Part shown: piece by piece, positions 52,708 to 61,939 of the stretch
Position numbering within the stretch: position 1 is the stretch's first letter
Layout: each line of letters starts with the position of its first letter
Assembly: GCF_014359565.1 (NCBI RefSeq)
Contig: NZ_JACIZD010000001.1
Location: 372,001 to 436,000, forward strand
Direction of reading: 5' to 3'
DNA from: Immundisolibacter sp.
GTDB taxonomy: Bacteria > Pseudomonadota > Gammaproteobacteria > Immundisolibacterales > Immundisolibacteraceae
Length of the DNA: 64,000 nt
Position numbers and translations under genes: made by a program
Notes under the pieces: generated by a model
Seen by the model: the letters and a program-made list of their open reading frames with translations, nothing else
The model's database searches: none
What the model was told of the DNA's origin: nothing

Positions 52708-52954
52708 GAATTAACTGCCTGAACGGTGGGGTGGGGCTTGCGCGTGCAGCGGGCGCGGATGGTAGCCGGACGGCGTGGCTGCGGCAAAGACGCTGGGCGC
52801 TCAGACCGGCACTTCGTGCCACGGGTGCGCACCTGGCAGGAGGCGCTGGAAATGATGGTGGCCGATCAGCCGGCCGGCCCGGAGTCGGGGCATGATGCCG
52901 GCGTGCCGGTATCCTGAACAAAGCGATCCACTCCCCAATCTGGCAAATATCCGA

Positions 52955-54511
52955 ATGACTGACGACACCCACGCCGCCTCGACCGGCGCCGACATCAAGC
53001 TGCGCCTGCGCAATCTCGTGGCGGACGACTACCCGGCCATCAAGAAGATCATGGACCGGGTCTACCCGGGCATGGGCGGCGCCTGGCCGCGCAAGAAGTA
53101 CCTGGCCATGCTCAAGACCTTTCCGGAGGGCCAGATCTGCATCGAGGACAACGGCGTGGCGGTGGCGGCGGCGTTCTCGGTGATCGTCGACTACGACAAG
53201 TTCGGCGACGAACACACCTACGACGAGATCACCGGCAACGCCTACCTGACCACGCACGACCCAAACGGCGACGTGCTGTACGGCGTGGACGTGTTCGTCG
53301 ATCCGGACTACCGCAACCTGCGTCTGGGCCGGCGCCTGTACGAGGCGCGCAAGGAGCTGTGCAAGAACCTGAACCTGCGCGCCATCATCGCCGGCGGGCG
53401 CATTCCCAACTACCGCGACTACGCCGAGCGCATGACGCCGCAGGAGTACATCGAGGCGGTGCGCCGGCGCGAGGTCTATGACCCGATCCTGAGCTTCCAG
53501 CTGGCCAACGATTTCGAGGTCAAGCGCGTGCTCAAGGGCTACCTGCCGGAGGACAAGGAATCGCAGGGCTACGCCACGCTGCTGGAGTGGTTCAACATCT
53601 ACTACGAGCCGAAGGACTCGAAGCTGTTCGGCGCGCGCAAGACGGTGGCGCGCATCGGCTGCGTGCAGTGGCAGATGCGCCAGATGCACAGCGTCGAGGA
53701 ACTGGTCAAGCAGGTCGAGTATTTCGTCGACGCGCTATCGGACTACCGCTGCGACATTGCGCTGTTTCCAGAGTTCTTCAACGCGCCGCTGATGGGCCTG
53801 GCCGAGCACCGCAATACGGCCGAGGCGATCCGCTTCCTGGCCCAGTTCACGCCACGCATCCGCGACGACATCCAGCGCCTGGCGGTCAGCTACAACATCA
53901 ACATCATCGCCGGCTCGATGCCGCTGCTCGAGGATGGCGAGCTGTACAACGTGGCCTACCTGTGCCGCCGCGATGGCTCCGTCGACACCCAGTACAAGCT
54001 GCACCCGACGCCGCACGAGAAGCGTGACTGGGCCATGGAAGGCGGCAACCGGCTGACCGCGTTCGACACCGACTTCGGGCGCATCGGCGTGCTGATCTGC
54101 TACGACGTGGAGTTCCCGGAACTGGCGCGCCTGCTCGGCGACCAGGAGATGCAGATCCTGTTCGTGCCGTTCTGGACCGACACCAAGAACGGTTACCTGC
54201 GCGTGCGCCGCTGCGCCCAGGCACGGGCCATCGAGAACGAGTGCTACGTCGCCATCGGCGGCAGCATCGGCAACCTGCCCCAGGTGGACAGCGTGGACAT
54301 CCAGTACAGCCAGACGGCGGTGTTCTCGCCGTCGGACTTCTCCTTCCCGCACGACGCCATCATGGCCGAGACCACGCCCAATACCGAGATGACGCTGATC
54401 GTCGACGTCGACCTGGACAAGCTGCAGATGCTGCAGAACGAGGGCTCGGTGCGCAATTACCTGGATCGCCGCCGCGACCTGTACCGGGTGCAGTGGCTGG
54501 GGGAGGGCTAG
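52955..54511 (+). CDS. GNAT acetyltransferase fused to a carbon-nitrogen hydrolase (nitrilase superfamily)
   Basis: This 518-residue fusion has an N-terminal GNAT domain (about 14-200; LRNLVADDYPAIKKIM, VDVFVDPDYRNLRLGRRLY) and a C-terminal nitrilase-superfamily amidohydrolase. The latter's triad is Glu273 (FPEFFNAP), Lys348 (YKLHPTPHE) and Cys382 (ICYDVEFPE). This arrangement occurs in several bacteria, and the substrate is unknown; deacylation of an acylated amine or amide is plausible. The ATG at 52955 was chosen as the first Met near the domain, with no strong ribosome site. Its stop overlaps the IS630 remnant on the other strand by four bases. Confidence 0.9.
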   Translation: MTDDTHAASTGADIKLRLRNLVADDYPAIKKIMDRVYPGMGGAWPRKKYLAMLKTFPEGQICIEDNGVAVAAAFSVIVDYDKFGDEHTYDEITGNAYLTTHDPNGDVLYGVDVFVDPDYRNLRLGRRLYEARKELCKNLNLRAIIAGGRIPNYRDYAERMTPQEYIEAVRRREVYDPILSFQLANDFEVKRVLKGYLPEDKESQGYATLLEWFNIYYEPKDSKLFGARKTVARIGCVQWQMRQMHSVEELVKQVEYFVDALSDYRCDIALFPEFFNAPLMGLAEHRNTAEAIRFLAQFTPRIRDDIQRLAVSYNINIIAGSMPLLEDGELYNVAYLCRRDGSVDTQYKLHPTPHEKRDWAMEGGNRLTAFDTDFGRIGVLICYDVEFPELARLLGDQEMQILFVPFWTDTKNGYLRVRRCAQARAIENECYVAIGGSIGNLPQVDSVDIQYSQTAVFSPSDFSFPHDAIMAETTPNTEMTLIVDVDLDKLQMLQNEGSVRNYLDRRRDLYRVQWLGEG

Positions 54512-54813: not shown

Positions 54814-55746
54814 TCAGGATGCTTCGTCCTCAAAATAATCGCTGTCGATCTTCGGAATCCTGACCGTGCGTGAGCTGATGCCGACCTCGTGGTCGATCAT
54901 CAGGCCGGCCAGGCGCGCGCCGTCGATCAGCACGATGCCCTCCACGGATCTTGCAAAGTCCACGGCCTGCGACGAGTACGTTGATGTGGTGATGAACACG
55001 CCCTTTTTCGCCTTCTGCCCGGCGAGCGCTCCGTAGAAAGCCTGCAGATCAGGGCGGCCCACGCAGGCCTGCCAGCGCTTGGCCTGGACGTACACCTTCT
55101 CCAACCCGAGGCGGTCAAGCGAGATGATCCCGTCAATTCCCGCGTCGCCGGAGCCGCCCACGCGCTGCAGGTCCGCTCGGTTCGCGCCGTAGCCCATGCG
55201 GTGCAGCAGATCAAGAACGATGGTTTCGAAGAAGGCCGGCGACACGTTGGCCAGCAGCTCAAGCAGCTCCGATTCGGCCGATTGGCGCAGTTCCAGCAAT
55301 GCCTGACCGAGCCGGTCGTCGGGGCTTGCTACCGACTCGCAGTGCAGTGGCGCACAGGTCGGTAACGGCGGCTGGACCAGCGCAGGGCCATTCGATTGCC
55401 GCAGCTTGACGTCGGGGTATCCCGTCGCCAGCTGCTGGGCCAGTTCCGCCGTGAACGGACCGGGATGCTCCGCAGCGAACCTGAGCCCTTCGGGCGTGGC
55501 CTTCCAGATACCTCGCCGTGGGCTGCCCGATAGCCCGGCCCGTTTCAGCCTGTCGTGCGCCCATCCAGCGCGGTTTTTGTACATGAGCTGCGCGCCGCTT
55601 GGCAGCGGTTGCTGCCGATCTTCCTCGGTGAGTCGAAGTGCGTCTGCGGCGGCCTCATGCGCTTGCCGGGCAGGTACGCCATCGGGGTGCTGCACCAGGT
55701 AGCGCAGTACCGGCTCGATGAACTGGTCGTATGTCGGGACAGCCAT
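54814..55746 (-). CDS. Mrr-type restriction endonuclease
   Basis: This 310-residue protein has an N-terminal winged-helix Mrr_N domain (AVPTYDQFIEPVLRYLVQHP, GWAHDRLKRAGLSGSPRRGIW) and a C-terminal PD-(D/E)XK Mrr nuclease (FFETIVLDLLHRMGYG, GGSGDAGIDGII, VYVQAKRW). The Asp of GDAGIDG and the Gln-x-Lys of QAK are the catalytic set. Mrr enzymes cut modified DNA. The ATG at 55746 starts the family N-terminus; a TTG three codons upstream is possible. It lies near the phosphorothioation cluster but in a separate transcription unit. Confidence 0.92.
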   Translation of the reverse strand: MAVPTYDQFIEPVLRYLVQHPDGVPARQAHEAAADALRLTEEDRQQPLPSGAQLMYKNRAGWAHDRLKRAGLSGSPRRGIWKATPEGLRFAAEHPGPFTAELAQQLATGYPDVKLRQSNGPALVQPPLPTCAPLHCESVASPDDRLGQALLELRQSAESELLELLANVSPAFFETIVLDLLHRMGYGANRADLQRVGGSGDAGIDGIISLDRLGLEKVYVQAKRWQACVGRPDLQAFYGALAGQKAKKGVFITTSTYSSQAVDFARSVEGIVLIDGARLAGLMIDHEVGISSRTVRIPKIDSDYFEDEAS

Positions 55747-55832
55747 ATGCAACAACGTACAAAACGGACCGACCCCGAATTTAACCCACTATTTGCCGGA
55801 CACCTTGCCGCGCCTGCGGCGGCCAAAATCCC

Positions 55833-56537: not shown

Positions 56538-56713
56538 GGCGGCTCTCCTCGTTGTGGTGGTGGCTTGCAGTGTCGCGCCGGTGGGTGCGGCGCTCAAGCG
56601 CACCGCAGCGCGCAACCCTAAGACGAATCTAGGTCAACCCACCGCGCAGACGACGGTTTCCAGGCCCCGACTCCGGACTAGGTGCAGCAGCTTTTGAGTT
56701 TCCTTATGGAGAC

Positions 56714-58252
56714 TTAGCCCCAACCAGCTACCCGCCGAGGGGATGGATCGGCACTGAGTTTGACCCAGGCCTGTCCCTTCTCCAGCACCGCGAGGTTCGC
56801 CGTCGGCCCAATAATGCGCCGAACCGCCTGAGCGTTTGCATTAGTACGAAATGCCGCCACCAAGCCCATCTCGTCGAGAAACTCGTCATCCTCACCGGAA
56901 AAGTCGTCCGGGCCTTGCGAGATCAGCATCAACGCTCCGCCCTTCGAGCGACTGAGCCGCACGAGTCCTGAAAGCCCGGGCAACTTCGCTCCGAGGATGC
57001 GGTGCGCCTCGTCAATTACGCACAGCACTCGCAGGGCACGATTACCCTCAGAATCTGTCGGTGCGTCGGCAAGACTATTAAGATACCGGTCTAAGGCATC
57101 GGTAATCAAAGTGACCACAGACACCTTCACCAAATCGGGCAGGTCAGCCGTCAGGCGGATGATCCATGAACGCCGGAAGAACTCGGCTGGTGGCAGGTCA
57201 GGCGTGAAGAGTTCAAAGCGACAGAGATCAGCCAATGTCGTGGTGGCGCCATCATCCTGCTTGCCTTGCGCTGCATAGATCGCTTTCAGCGCGTCGCGCA
57301 CATCGCTCAACCGGCATGGCGTTTTAGTTCGTAATGCCTGCTCCGCGGCATCTCCAACCAATCCCTTTTGCAAGGGACCAAAGCCACTTCCCTTGAGAGT
57401 AGCGAGGCTGTCACGCAAGCGCTGCGCGGCCAGTGCAACGTCGGTTTGCGTGCGCTCAGCAAGTGCAAGCACATCCAATGGAATGGGTTGGTGAGGTGGC
57501 GCTAGCACAGTCGCCCCAAACGCCTGATCCAGCGCGTTGTGGCTGTCATTCATGTCGCCTTTGAAGTCGAAGGCAATCAAGGACACAGGCGTCTGCTTGC
57601 GGATCGCGCGCAGCATATATGCGGCAGTGCGCGTCTTGCCGCTGCCTACCGCGCCCATGACCGCAGCGTGGGGGCTGTTACCTGGTGCATTAAGCGGCCA
57701 TACAACGCGCTCACCGGTCATAACGTCTGCGGCGATCTCGCCGAACGGCACGGCGATAGCTGTAGGCGAAAGTCCTTCAGACTGTCCATCTTCGCCACCG
57801 ACGTGCTCAGCTGCCGGTCCCTCTGGCAGCGCTGCCTGCGCCACGGCGCGCCAAAACTCGCCTTGATCGCCCGATGCTTCGTTCATAGTCGCGGCAAGCA
57901 CGCCAAGGCCACGCGCCCAATGAGCTGCCACCCATCCCTGAAATTGGCGTAAGTTCTGTGGCGGCTCCCCGGCGTACTCAATGATCAGCGACACCCAAGC
58001 AGCCAAATCCACACCCGTACCAAACAGTGTGTCGCCCTTAATTCCACGACCAACATCGCCCTGTGTTTCTTCTGGGGGCTCCGAAATCGCAAGCGATCTG
58101 GCGATAGCCAAACGTGCCGGCACGTTGAACGCACCAAAACCAAGAGCATCTTTCAGACGCTTCGCCTGATCGTCGGCAATTGCGGTTGTACGAAACGACG
58201 CGGTGGCAATCTCATCGAGCCCGATTGCAGGAGAATTGGACTCACCGTTCAT
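56714..58252 (-). CDS. DndE domain fused to a HerA/FtsK-like ATPase
   Basis: This 512-residue fusion begins with a DndE-like helical domain (about 18-120: FRTTAIADDQAKRLKDALGF, ARSLAISEPP, GRGIKGDTLFG). It continues with a HerA/FtsK-type ATPase: Walker A GAVGSGKTR (200-208), Walker B VLCVIDEAH and a late ISQGPDDFSGEDDEF sensor region. DndE binds nicked DNA in phosphorothioation; a motor attached to it is not part of the classical four-gene set. It follows dndD by two bases on the same strand. The reading is clear for both domains; the function of the fusion is inferred. Confidence 0.85.
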   Translation of the reverse strand: MNGESNSPAIGLDEIATASFRTTAIADDQAKRLKDALGFGAFNVPARLAIARSLAISEPPEETQGDVGRGIKGDTLFGTGVDLAAWVSLIIEYAGEPPQNLRQFQGWVAAHWARGLGVLAATMNEASGDQGEFWRAVAQAALPEGPAAEHVGGEDGQSEGLSPTAIAVPFGEIAADVMTGERVVWPLNAPGNSPHAAVMGAVGSGKTRTAAYMLRAIRKQTPVSLIAFDFKGDMNDSHNALDQAFGATVLAPPHQPIPLDVLALAERTQTDVALAAQRLRDSLATLKGSGFGPLQKGLVGDAAEQALRTKTPCRLSDVRDALKAIYAAQGKQDDGATTTLADLCRFELFTPDLPPAEFFRRSWIIRLTADLPDLVKVSVVTLITDALDRYLNSLADAPTDSEGNRALRVLCVIDEAHRILGAKLPGLSGLVRLSRSKGGALMLISQGPDDFSGEDDEFLDEMGLVAAFRTNANAQAVRRIIGPTANLAVLEKGQAWVKLSADPSPRRVAGWG

Positions 58253-58254
58253 TT

Positions 58255-60336
58255 TTAAATCCCCTGTCCCGGAAAATAGCCCTCAACCGGCCAGCTCAAA
58301 CCAATATCGCCATTTGTGCTGTTTTCGATCCGACACGCTTTAAGCACACGCGACCGTATGGCATCCAGATATGGACCCACGACCTCTGTGTTGGTCGAAA
58401 TCAATATCACCTGACCATCCCGTCGTACCAGATGACGAAGCACGTTCAGGCGATGTTCTTGGTCCAGCCTGCCTAAGGGGGTATCAATCACTAGAGGAAA
58501 TACGCGGCCCGAAACATGGGCAATGGACCAAAACAACGCCTGAGTAAAAATCTGCTTCTCGCCAGCGGAAAGGTCGAATTCTCGCAGATTTCGTCCATTA
58601 GGCGCGAGCAGCATAACTTGCCCGTCATTGGTGATTTCGACACGGCTGAGATAATCATCGCGGTGTGCCATCGCCGTTACTGCACGCGTCATTGCTGATG
58701 CAATGGCCTGCGCCTGGATCGGCCAAGCATCGGAAGCCAGATCGTCCAACATCAAAGCAACCTCCTCAGCGCGCTTGGCGAGCCGCGCCGGCCGCGCTGA
58801 CTGATCAAGCTGCCCAGTTAACCGCCCCAGCTCCTTACGCTTCTGTTCAAGATCGGCGTTGCGCGACGCGATTAAGCTGCTTTTCTCGCCACGCTCCTCG
58901 CTCAGCGCACGGATAACTTTATTGAGTTCGGCGATACGCACACGTTTCTCTTCTAGCTGCGGCGCTGTTACCTCCGACGCTTGGATGGTCGCGTTAATGT
59001 TGCGTAGTGCTGCCGCGGCTCGTGCCATCGATCCAAGCAACGATGACACCGTGCCAACTGTGACCTTTGCGGCCTGATCAAGCCGCGCCAGTACACGTTC
59101 GCCCATTGCTCCTTGCGCGTGCATGTGCCTGAATGACTCCGCAGCATCATCCGGCGCTGGATGCCAGAGTCGGTCGAGTGCACGGCGCACCGCCTCTCTC
59201 ACCCATTCACCCTGCTCAGGCACCAGCGGCGGCACGATAGTAGTAAGCTCGTGCTCTATTCCCGCAATGACGTGCTCGATCCGCCCCTGCCCTTCCTTGG
59301 CCGAGGCCAGCCATTGCGCGAGCCGCTGCTCGCGCGTCAATCGTTCAGCGAGCTGAGTCCGTAGCCCGCCACCGGACAAGGCGAGTGGCAAGTCGCCGCT
59401 GGCGATCTGGAAAAGTTTTTCCTTGGCGATGTCGTAGGCCTTTTCCTGATCGGCGCGTTCCTTGATCAACTCTTCAAGTTGAGCACGAGTTCCGGTTCCA
59501 TAACCAGCCAGTTCACGTGTGAGCGCATCTCGTTCTGCTTCGGCATTCGCAAGGCCTGGGGAAATCTGGTCGAGACGTTGTATAGCATTCTCAACTTCTA
59601 CCGCCAGCCCCGCGATTGTAGATTCCAGCGCGGTCACCGCATCGGTATTCACACCGCGCGGTACGTCGCTGCGCCGCCGGGTTGCGTAGTCGCGCAGGCT
59701 CTTGCTCAAGGTACGGAGCCAAATGAGACCAAGCAGGCCTTCAATCCCATCGCGTACCTGAACAGCCATGTCGCGTTCGGCATATACGGAGGCCGCTTCG
59801 CCATCGAAAAGAAAGAAGCCGGCCAAAGACGCTGGCATGAAGGTGCGAGCGATCCAATCGCGATACCACCCTTGCGGGTCGGCCTCGGCTGGCCCGGGAC
59901 CGATCACTTCGCGGGCCAATCCCTTCATGATTCGGACGGTTTCGGCACCTTCACCGGGGCGCAGACGACCAGCATCTGTGAAATGCCATATACGCTCAAT
60001 GACGATCGGCTCGCCGGTTTGGTCCTGAAAGGTGAGCACGATCTGGCATGAACGCCTGCCGGCGCGAATTGCGTGCCCATTCAGCGCACGTTCGATGAAA
60101 GCGCGAAATGATTGCCCTCTGTTTTGTTCATCGGCGGCCGCCGCGGCGCGCGAGATGAGGGGCAAACCGTAGGCGCCGTAAAGCCCCAGGGCGATTGCTT
60201 CGAAAAGTGTCGTTTTTCCAAAGCCGTTCTGGCCGCCGATCAGGATGACATTACGGTCGCCGTCCGGCTCCGGGAAATCGAAGCGGGCTGCCTCATAAGC
60301 CTTCCAGTCACGTAGAGAAACAGAGCGAAGGTGCAT
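58255..60336 (-). CDS. dndD: DNA phosphorothioation ATPase DndD (SMC/RecF-like)
   Basis: This 693-residue SMC-like ATPase has Walker A GGQNGFGKTT (34-43) in a RecF-type start (MHLRSVSLRDWKAYEAARF) and long coiled coils (about 230-320 and 430-520). The C-terminal signature LSAGEKQIFTQAL and Walker B LVIDTPLGRLDQEHR follow. DndD powers DNA structural changes during sulfur insertion by DndC. It overlaps the upstream small gene by one base and is coupled with the DndE-HerA gene. Confidence 0.93.
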   Translation of the reverse strand: MHLRSVSLRDWKAYEAARFDFPEPDGDRNVILIGGQNGFGKTTLFEAIALGLYGAYGLPLISRAAAAADEQNRGQSFRAFIERALNGHAIRAGRRSCQIVLTFQDQTGEPIVIERIWHFTDAGRLRPGEGAETVRIMKGLAREVIGPGPAEADPQGWYRDWIARTFMPASLAGFFLFDGEAASVYAERDMAVQVRDGIEGLLGLIWLRTLSKSLRDYATRRRSDVPRGVNTDAVTALESTIAGLAVEVENAIQRLDQISPGLANAEAERDALTRELAGYGTGTRAQLEELIKERADQEKAYDIAKEKLFQIASGDLPLALSGGGLRTQLAERLTREQRLAQWLASAKEGQGRIEHVIAGIEHELTTIVPPLVPEQGEWVREAVRRALDRLWHPAPDDAAESFRHMHAQGAMGERVLARLDQAAKVTVGTVSSLLGSMARAAAALRNINATIQASEVTAPQLEEKRVRIAELNKVIRALSEERGEKSSLIASRNADLEQKRKELGRLTGQLDQSARPARLAKRAEEVALMLDDLASDAWPIQAQAIASAMTRAVTAMAHRDDYLSRVEITNDGQVMLLAPNGRNLREFDLSAGEKQIFTQALFWSIAHVSGRVFPLVIDTPLGRLDQEHRLNVLRHLVRRDGQVILISTNTEVVGPYLDAIRSRVLKACRIENSTNGDIGLSWPVEGYFPGQGI

Positions 60337-60539
60337 TAGTCGTGCGCCCCAACGTCGGCGTCCAGCACCTCGTCAAAGGCCTGCCACAATCCATGGCGCC
60401 GTTGCATGGTGCTTTTATCGATAACCTCTTCGATAAGGCGCTGCAAGTCGCCAACTGGCAGTCCGATTTTGCGGCAATGATTTTCGATCAACCGCCTGCC
60501 GTCTTCCTGATCAAATAGCACAACTATGTCGCGTGGCAT
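60336..60539 (-). CDS. DNA-modification-system-associated small protein
   Basis: This 67-residue acidic protein (VVLFDQEDGRRLIENHCRKI, GDLQRLIEEVIDKS) sits between dndC and dndD with GGGAGGGG upstream of the ATG. Small proteins of this kind recur in phosphorothioation and related modification loci. Its role is unknown; it may be an adaptor for DndD. Its stop overlaps the dndD start (TAATG). Confidence 0.8.
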   Translation of the reverse strand: MPRDIVVLFDQEDGRRLIENHCRKIGLPVGDLQRLIEEVIDKSTMQRRHGLWQAFDEVLDADVGAHD

Positions 60540-60564
60540 TTGCTACCCCTCCCTGAAGCGTGAA

Positions 60565-61710
60565 TTACAGTGCGCACGCTTCCGCGGCCCACAGTGCGCC
60601 CTGTGCGGCATCGTCTGCCCAGATTGTTTTGATCCGGGCAATCTCGTCTGGGCTGATCAGTTGCCGACCTACCGCAGCCTGCAGGTCGAGTAAACGGTCA
60701 AATATCTCTTCCCGCGCCTGCAGGGTGAACGGCCCCGGTACGAACACGCCTTCCGCGGTTACCGTGATCCGTCCGTCACGCCGTCGCGCCATGCGCCGGT
60801 GTGGATCATTGCGGATTGAGACGAGCCAATCGCGAAAGGCAATGAGCGGTCCGAACTCAGCAAACCCAGCTTCGACAAAACCTTCGAGACTGCGATCCTT
60901 CTCAACCACGGTGCAGGTCCAACAACCGAAGCGGGACGACGAAGTGCCGCAGGAGGGAGCATCCGATTTTTGCGTGACAACAGGACATTCGCCACCACCA
61001 GCATCGCGATAAAGCTTGATCAGTGCCGTGTGGCTTCCACCCCAGGGCGGCATCGTTGCGCCCAGGAACTCCCAAATGTCGTCGGTAGAAAGATCCACGA
61101 TGGGTCGGTAGACCATGCAACCCGGCAAGTCGTTGTGGCGGTTGAGTCTTTGGCCATTGTCGTAGCGCGCGACGCTGCCGGCGCGGGTGGCAGATTCGTC
61201 CCGCCGAACCCCCAGCAGAAGAATGACTTCGCCCGACACGGTGACTTGATCGCGGATGTATCGACTAGTGGGCTGAATCTTCATGCGATCCGTACACCAG
61301 CGAAACGTCCGATTCGGCGATGGATAGCCCCGACCGATCAGGTTTACCCAGAATGTGGCGTCCGGATCCGGGCGGGAGGTCACGACATGCACGGGCAGGC
61401 GCCATGCATCTGCTGCCCGACGTAACTCATCCTGCACGGTGTCGATGTGCCCCATTACCAGCGGGCTTTCCACCAGCGTGTCGTTCGAAATGACATGCAC
61501 TTCACGCCGCCGGTCCTCCGGCGCGAGTGACAGCAGTAGTTCAAATACCAGATGGAGTACGACCGTGCTGTCCTTGCCACCCGAGTAGCCGACGATCCAT
61601 GGATCCTGGTGGGGGGCCAAGTACTCGTCACGCAGGTCAGCACGGATGGAAGCAAGCGCCTTGTCCAGTACAGGATCGAGCGGTTGAGGTGGTGAGAAAG
61701 GGTCAGTCAT
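60565..61710 (-). CDS. dndC: DNA phosphorothioation sulfurtransferase DndC
   Basis: This 381-residue PAPS-reductase-like protein has the PP-loop YSGGKDSTV (42-50) for ATP and a 4Fe-4S cysteine set in RWCTDRMK and SCGTSSSRFGCWTC. DndC activates the DNA backbone and inserts sulfur supplied by a cysteine desulfurase. The ATG at 61710 was chosen because the homologous part starts at MTDPFSPP; longer frames upstream are non-coding in style. It is the first gene of the minus-strand cluster; the 229 bp to the divergent amidohydrolase hold its promoter but no dndB or dndA. Confidence 0.93.
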   Translation of the reverse strand: MTDPFSPPQPLDPVLDKALASIRADLRDEYLAPHQDPWIVGYSGGKDSTVVLHLVFELLLSLAPEDRRREVHVISNDTLVESPLVMGHIDTVQDELRRAADAWRLPVHVVTSRPDPDATFWVNLIGRGYPSPNRTFRWCTDRMKIQPTSRYIRDQVTVSGEVILLLGVRRDESATRAGSVARYDNGQRLNRHNDLPGCMVYRPIVDLSTDDIWEFLGATMPPWGGSHTALIKLYRDAGGGECPVVTQKSDAPSCGTSSSRFGCWTCTVVEKDRSLEGFVEAGFAEFGPLIAFRDWLVSIRNDPHRRMARRRDGRITVTAEGVFVPGPFTLQAREEIFDRLLDLQAAVGRQLISPDEIARIKTIWADDAAQGALWAAEACAL

Positions 61711-61939
61711 GGTGCGGCGATCATCGCGGAGGCTGAAGGTGGGCGCAAGCACATACTCGCTACTTGAACGGTGATTCGCTGCGGAGCCTATCAGAGCATG
61801 TGTGCACGACGCTCCAAATTCAAGCGCCTTGACCGCCCGGTCGGCGGGCGGAATGATGGCCGCTGGCCCGCCGCTACACGGATGCGCCGGCTCGCCCCAC
61901 CGTACCGACATACCAACATACCGGCGAGGAGAAACCCCC

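Follow-up and report, generated by a model that had tools for sequence, protein, structure and literature searches.

A tight minus-strand operon at 56714-61710 of the window, the 64,000-nucleotide stretch of the Immundisolibacter sp. genome analyzed here, encodes in order DndC, a 67-residue protein, DndD, and a DndE-HerA fusion. We consider it probable that this is a self-contained, imported phosphorothioation (PT) cassette with a built-in translocase, the motor most likely serving exclusion as well as target finding. The DndC, DndD, and DndE families are all recognized (TIGR03183, TIGR03185, and PF08870), which supports placing the locus among candidate variants of Dnd-type systems, and both this placement and the gene order with its coordinates (Table 1) agree with the first-pass annotation of this DNA. 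The gaps between successive genes are 25, −1, and 2 nt (dndC/small gene, small gene/dndD, and dndD/dndE-herA), and all catalytic motifs checked in dndC, dndD, and the motor are intact. A single protein would combine the modification system’s DNA reader with a motor of the kind used by its restriction partner, within a unit of four genes that is small enough to reconstitute.

Table 1. Coordinates of the cassette genes and of the stretch missing from a same-genus genome.
Feature	Position	Strand	Length and basis
dndC, short form	60565..61710	-	381 aa; TIGR03183 370 bits; sulfurtransferase core with PP-loop and Cys cluster
small protein, putative detached DndC C-terminal domain	60336..60539	-	67 aa; reciprocal HMMs, hhalign
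dndD	58255..60336	-	693 aa; ABC ATPase with coiled coil; TIGR03185, PADLOC PDLC02736
dndE-herA fusion	56714..58252	-	512 aa; PF08870, AlphaFold2, Foldseek, PDB profile search, 27-sequence alignment
stretch absent from same-genus genome G002	56598..61819 (approximate)	.	flank comparison

The fusion begins with a DndE domain at about residues 18-125, matched by PF08870 at residues 20-125 (31.9 bits against a cut-off of 25), continues through a flexible linker at about 126-165, and ends in a dsDNA translocase domain of the HerA/DndH type at about 168-500, its HerA/TrwB-type P-loop domain starting at about residue 168. Walker A of the motor lies at 200-207 (GAVGSGKT) and Walker B at 409-416, and R432 and Q446 are invariant in an alignment of 27 relatives. 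An AlphaFold2 model built with 27 sequences (mean pLDDT 87) has 2 ribbon-helix-helix units, then a linker that is disordered at 143-160, and a motor modeled with confidence, the 2 units corresponding to the DndE fold as described in the text of PMC10853773. In Foldseek the top PDB match of this model is the C-terminal domain of DndH (7es4, E = 1.5e-17), with HerA and VirB4 ranking below, and a profile of the 27 relatives matched both the DptH motor (7es4, E = 8e-13, positions 171-461) and DndE (7x4e, E = 5e-4, positions 24-121). By sequence profile and predicted fold, the fused motor is closest to the motor at the C-terminus of DndH/DptH, a restriction protein, and the matches to 7es4 and 7x4e together point to a reader subunit of the modification complex fused to a motor of the restriction-complex type. 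The motor is predicted to form a ring. That DndE and a HerA-like motor share one polypeptide adjoining DndD had been proposed in the first-pass annotation, and the Pfam match, alignment, model, and profile bear this out. Novelty of the fusion is not supported, since DndE-HerA/FtsK fusions beside DndD, with a “clade-3” HerA/FtsK, were reported in 2024 in the text of Rakesh, Aravind, and Krishnan (PMC10853773), so that the fusion itself was already known, and the four-gene order is found in about 25 other loci.

DndC carries the PP-loop motif SGGKDST and the Cys motifs ECP, SCG, and RFGCWTCT, and its match to TIGR03183 lies well above the cut-off of 290.4 bits (matched to 12-364 of 447). In an alignment with 8 canonical DndCs, it stops where these run about 100 residues further. 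The simplest reading of the small protein encoded next to it is that it represents this C-terminal domain in detached form, making this a split DndC, and since 25 nt separate the dndC stop from the start of the small gene, two proteins would be made. Against DndC profiles the small protein matches weakly, at their C-terminal end. When all ORFs of the collected loci were searched with an HMM built from 27 small proteins, the matches at E < 0.01 were only small proteins, canonical DndCs, and one 35-residue ORF (in L057), which is the copy of the small-protein gene from the window’s own genome, clipped at the locus edge. In a separate run, the matches of this HMM on canonical DndCs lay in a segment some 50 residues long close to the C-terminus, with shuffled and reversed controls reaching at most 3.6 bits; 1 of the 8, the Streptomyces DndC, gave no score above these controls. 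The reverse HMM, built from the 8 canonical C-termini and run against 8464 ORFs, returned those 8 and then small proteins only, to E < 1, and hhalign relates the small protein to the DndC C-terminus with a probability of 97%. The AlphaFold2 model of the small protein is helical, at modest confidence (pLDDT 69), and NCBI names its relatives “DNA modification system-associated small protein.” This relationship to DndC had been overlooked in the first-pass annotation. In 2 of the collected loci, L012 and L013, the small protein and DndE-HerA are kept where no dndC was seen, as would be expected if both belong to a DndD-DndE-motor unit. A split DndC appears to have no earlier description in the open-licence article texts searched, and it would offer a direct handle on the unexplained C-terminal domain of the sulfurtransferase and on its route to DndD-DndE.

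A survey of the neighborhoods of DndE-HerA fusions, which the first-pass annotation had suggested, showed the four-gene order to be recurrent. Scanning about 85,000 species genomes yielded 29 loci, a biased sample in that the scan patterns were drawn from the HerA-type motor, and locus counts are based on rough ORF calls. Where the contig permits, the order is constant, with dndC (about 380 aa), the small gene, dndD (about 690 aa), and dndE-herA (about 510 aa) in about 25 loci from Alpha- and Betaproteobacteria, Desulfobacterota, and Ignavibacteriota. The relatives are mostly Rhodobacterales and Acetobacterales, together with Sulfuritalea, Desulfobulbus, and one Ignavibacteriae MAG. Methylorubrum extorquens AM1 carries the four-gene cassette on a megaplasmid, and a 43-kb contig of a viral collection holds the full cassette and TusA followed by 2 ParB-like ORFs (L086, 2400-7774). 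A same-class survey found the fusion in 4 of 369 genomes, the window’s own among them. A TusA gene adjoins the cassette in several relatives, and in 5 loci (L024, L025, L027, L029, and L040) a DndB-like DGQHR gene lies downstream of it, after a short protein in which a membrane segment is likely; a methyltransferase-domain protein often joins this pair, which is an optional accessory seen repeatedly in Rhodobacterales.

The gene after dndC, the small gene, and dndD in Rhizobium phaseoli, Aureimonas, and Burkholderia glumae encodes DndE joined to a bona fide FtsK motor (FtsK_SpoIIIE and FtsK_alpha), the DndE part in B. glumae being assigned from position and length, not from Pfam. In a midpoint-rooted DndD tree, in which L006 and L011 form long branches of uncertain placement, the motor-fused systems form a group separate from canonical DndDs (support 100/98), and the 3 FtsK-fused loci cluster with the HerA-fused Desulfobulbus locus (support 100/100). 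A sister lineage thus has a bona fide FtsK motor in place of HerA, an exchange which likewise appears to have no earlier description in the open-licence article texts searched. From this exchange, selection would seem to keep the DNA pump as such, which makes protection by PT systems without DndFGH testable. In the Mesorhizobium locus L006 (3524-12204), a tandem arrangement of desulfurase, dndC, ABC ATPase, standalone DndE, small protein, second ABC ATPase, and DndE-FtsK places 2 DndD-DndE pairs, one standalone and one FtsK-fused, in a single operon, where the small protein precedes the fused pair, apart from dndC. Locus L013 (383-9968) combines DndD-DndE-HerA and the small protein with an Mrr_N-domain protein, downstream of an N6-methylase with an HsdR_N-like domain and a TaqI_C-like specificity protein. 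A methylase link for the dndC-less loci was considered and dropped: it is seen only in L013, the gene upstream in L012 being unrelated and housekeeping-like, with the contig ending just past the cassette.

Horizontal acquisition of the cassette, which the first-pass annotation had suggested from its composition, is supported by its low GC3 and by a same-genus genome that lacks it at this site. Its GC content is 58.8%, against 68.0% ± 1.7 for same-length stretches of the window, and GC3 is 60-65% in its genes, against 91-94% in native neighbors, the CN-hydrolase/GNAT, DSBA, and amidohydrolase-like genes. The same-genus genome (G002) has flanks that are 95-96% identical and no cassette at the corresponding position (L065, 7499-8238), where 739 bp with ParE/ParD-like ORFs, assigned by eye, are found instead; the presence of toxin-antitoxin ORFs of this kind at the same intergenic site could mark it as a hotspot of gene import. 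No integrase was observed beside the cassette. An 8-base repeat, TCAAGCGC, is present at both edges, but since random pairs of stretches have on average 2.6 8-mers of this kind in common, it is not evidence of a target duplication. Elsewhere in the window, a GNAT acetyltransferase is fused to a carbon-nitrogen hydrolase (52892-54511, plus strand, 539 aa).

If the four genes work together, then sulfur would be supplied by the housekeeping IscS, short DndC with its detached C-terminal domain would put it into the DNA backbone, and DndD and the DndE domain would position the insertion. The flexible linker would hold the DndE domain on a ring-forming dsDNA translocase of the type that drives the DndFGH restriction complex, and the motor would move the DndD-DndE reader along DNA, most likely excluding unmarked incoming DNA and finding targets without a dedicated nuclease. 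No desulfurase gene adjoins the cassette, but IscS is encoded on contig 16 (TIGR02006, 685 bits) and SufS on contig 14, and there are 3 TusA-family loci. DndB is absent from the whole genome, and the only match to DndH in it is the fused motor; the first-pass claims that dndA, dndB, and dndFGH are missing stand to this extent, the genome-wide searches behind them having been those for DndB and DndH. The suggestion of a partial system is, by contrast, unlikely, because the set is conserved as a unit, the checked motifs are intact, and housekeeping IscS may substitute for the desulfurase. We infer from the intact DndC, DndD, and DndE and the available IscS that the cassette makes PT, and the proposed sulfur chemistry is well supported by the anatomy of the genes. 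The motor may exclude unmarked DNA or drive modification, and we put the chances of an exclusion role at about even.

In favor of a PT cassette as a whole are the intact families and motifs, the presence of IscS, SufS, and TusA in the genome, and the recurrence of the unit in about 25 loci, several with TusA beside it. Against it, DndD scores 241 bits with TIGR03185, just short of the cut-off of 245.85, and several relatives carry a DndB-like DGQHR gene that is absent here. DndD has Walker A, signature, and Walker B motifs and pairs with a neighboring DndE domain that passes the PF08870 cut-off and shows both ribbon-helix-helix units in the model. An exclusion role in particular is suggested by a motor of the DndH type, given that DndFGH translocation is repressed by PT on self-DNA (PMC11662687), as well as by retention of a pump through a change of motor family and by the dndC-less loci L012 and L013, in which DndD-DndE-HerA and the small protein persist. 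The motor could instead be a processive scanner for DndE, with DndC and DndD modifying during translocation and no exclusion, in which case the mark might serve to regulate genes, to confer stress tolerance, or to protect the DNA against another restriction system. This is a serious but somewhat unlikely alternative. No second DndD was found in the genome, and its sole DndD-DndE pair must serve modification if PT is made; TusA neighbors point to sulfur flow; and among the commonest families listed for 24 loci no nuclease partner is conserved. Classical DndCDE, however, makes PT with a standalone DndE and needs no motor, and a scanner role fits poorly with a motor of restriction-complex type and with DndD-DndE-HerA found without dndC. 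The classical systems also weigh against our preferred reading of the cassette, as the motor here might serve modification.

There is no nuclease domain within the cassette and no conserved nuclease neighbor among the 25 commonest families listed (flank clustering of 24 loci and scans of 65 flanking ORFs, which could miss nuclease genes that occur singly), so exclusion would have to work either without nucleolysis or through a partner in trans. The repeated neighbors are the DGQHR/DndB-like protein, a short probable membrane protein, a methyltransferase-domain protein, and TusA, with integrases and defence genes scattered. A nuclease in trans, for which DndE-HerA would find unmodified DNA or to which it would feed it, is, in our estimate, quite unlikely. 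One candidate, a 612-residue DUF262-HNH protein with a DGQQR motif on contig 7 of the same genome (L081, 370-2208, minus strand), adjoins a transposase-like ORF and, among PDB sequences, matches the PT-sensing nuclease DndI best (9jfl, 45.9 bits); the match is confined to residues 8-94, the family is widespread, and the gene is unlinked. The other, an Mrr-type restriction endonuclease two genes downstream of the cassette, had been overlooked in the first-pass annotation (54814-55755, minus strand; Mrr_N and Mrr_cat; PADLOC mREase_IV, E = 3e-115; GC3 77%). It is found in no relative’s locus, and just its 3′ end survives in G002, which has no cassette; it looks unrelated to the cassette. Far more improbable still is a PbeABCD-type system whose helicase PbeA has been replaced by the fused motor, a reading already contradicted on its defining features. 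It would account for the 993 bits of the ATPase with PADLOC PDLC02736 (“PbeC”) and for a small protein, ATPase, and DndE collinear with pbeB-pbeC-pbeD. Yet a scan of DndD for a zinc hook found neither CxC nor CxxC, and we rejected it as PbeC on the missing CxC, a motif present in 2 Pbe-type ATPases (L077 and L078). The small protein, likewise rejected as PbeB, matches PbeB weakly in PADLOC (E = 5e-3), and it matches DndC and not the PbeB-position proteins of 3 Pbe-like loci, which miss both the small-protein and DndC C-terminal HMMs. No PbeA (HKD nuclease-helicase) gene adjoins the cassette, whose neighbors encode DSBA-family and amidohydrolase-like proteins.

The cassette with its built-in translocase can be joined to the split DndC in a more speculative proposal, which we hold to be rather unlikely as a whole: DndC would be modular by nature, its helical C-terminal adaptor docking the sulfurtransferase, or something else where dndC is missing, onto DndD-DndE-motor, and the motor-fused cassette would be complete in itself, marking DNA and excluding what is unmarked, by pumping or blocking it, with no need of a nuclease.

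Among known systems, TdpAB, whose structure (8wfd) is named in a Foldseek match, is comparable in having a HerA-like ring motor tied to a PT system, and it is a three-gene system of thermophiles with a gene set unlike this one. Canonical DndABCDE shares the DndC chemistry motifs, DndD, the DndE fold, and a desulfurase supply, here IscS; it differs in that DndC is here split and DndE motor-fused, with DndA and DndB missing from the operon and DndB from the genome. DndFGH/DptFGH resembles the cassette in its motor, which is closest in sequence and fold to the DndH C-terminal domain (7es4), whereas the DndH nuclease and other DndH domains are lacking here and the motor sits on a modification subunit. 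PbeABCD (PMC6459918) has the same order of small protein, ABC ATPase, and DndE-type protein, and archaeal PT systems likewise lack dndB, but in the present locus there is no PbeA helicase and no CxC, and the small protein is not homologous to the 3 PbeB-position proteins tested. Also close are the fusions of 2024 (PMC10853773), in which, for a subset of PT systems, DndE and a HerA/FtsK motor with kinship to DndH stand beside an ABC ATPase related to DndD. The text of that article describes the small protein of CxC systems as fast-evolving and mainly disordered; a small protein that is the C-terminal domain of DndC, and a fusion lineage in which HerA and FtsK motors have replaced one another, are what the present analysis would add to it.
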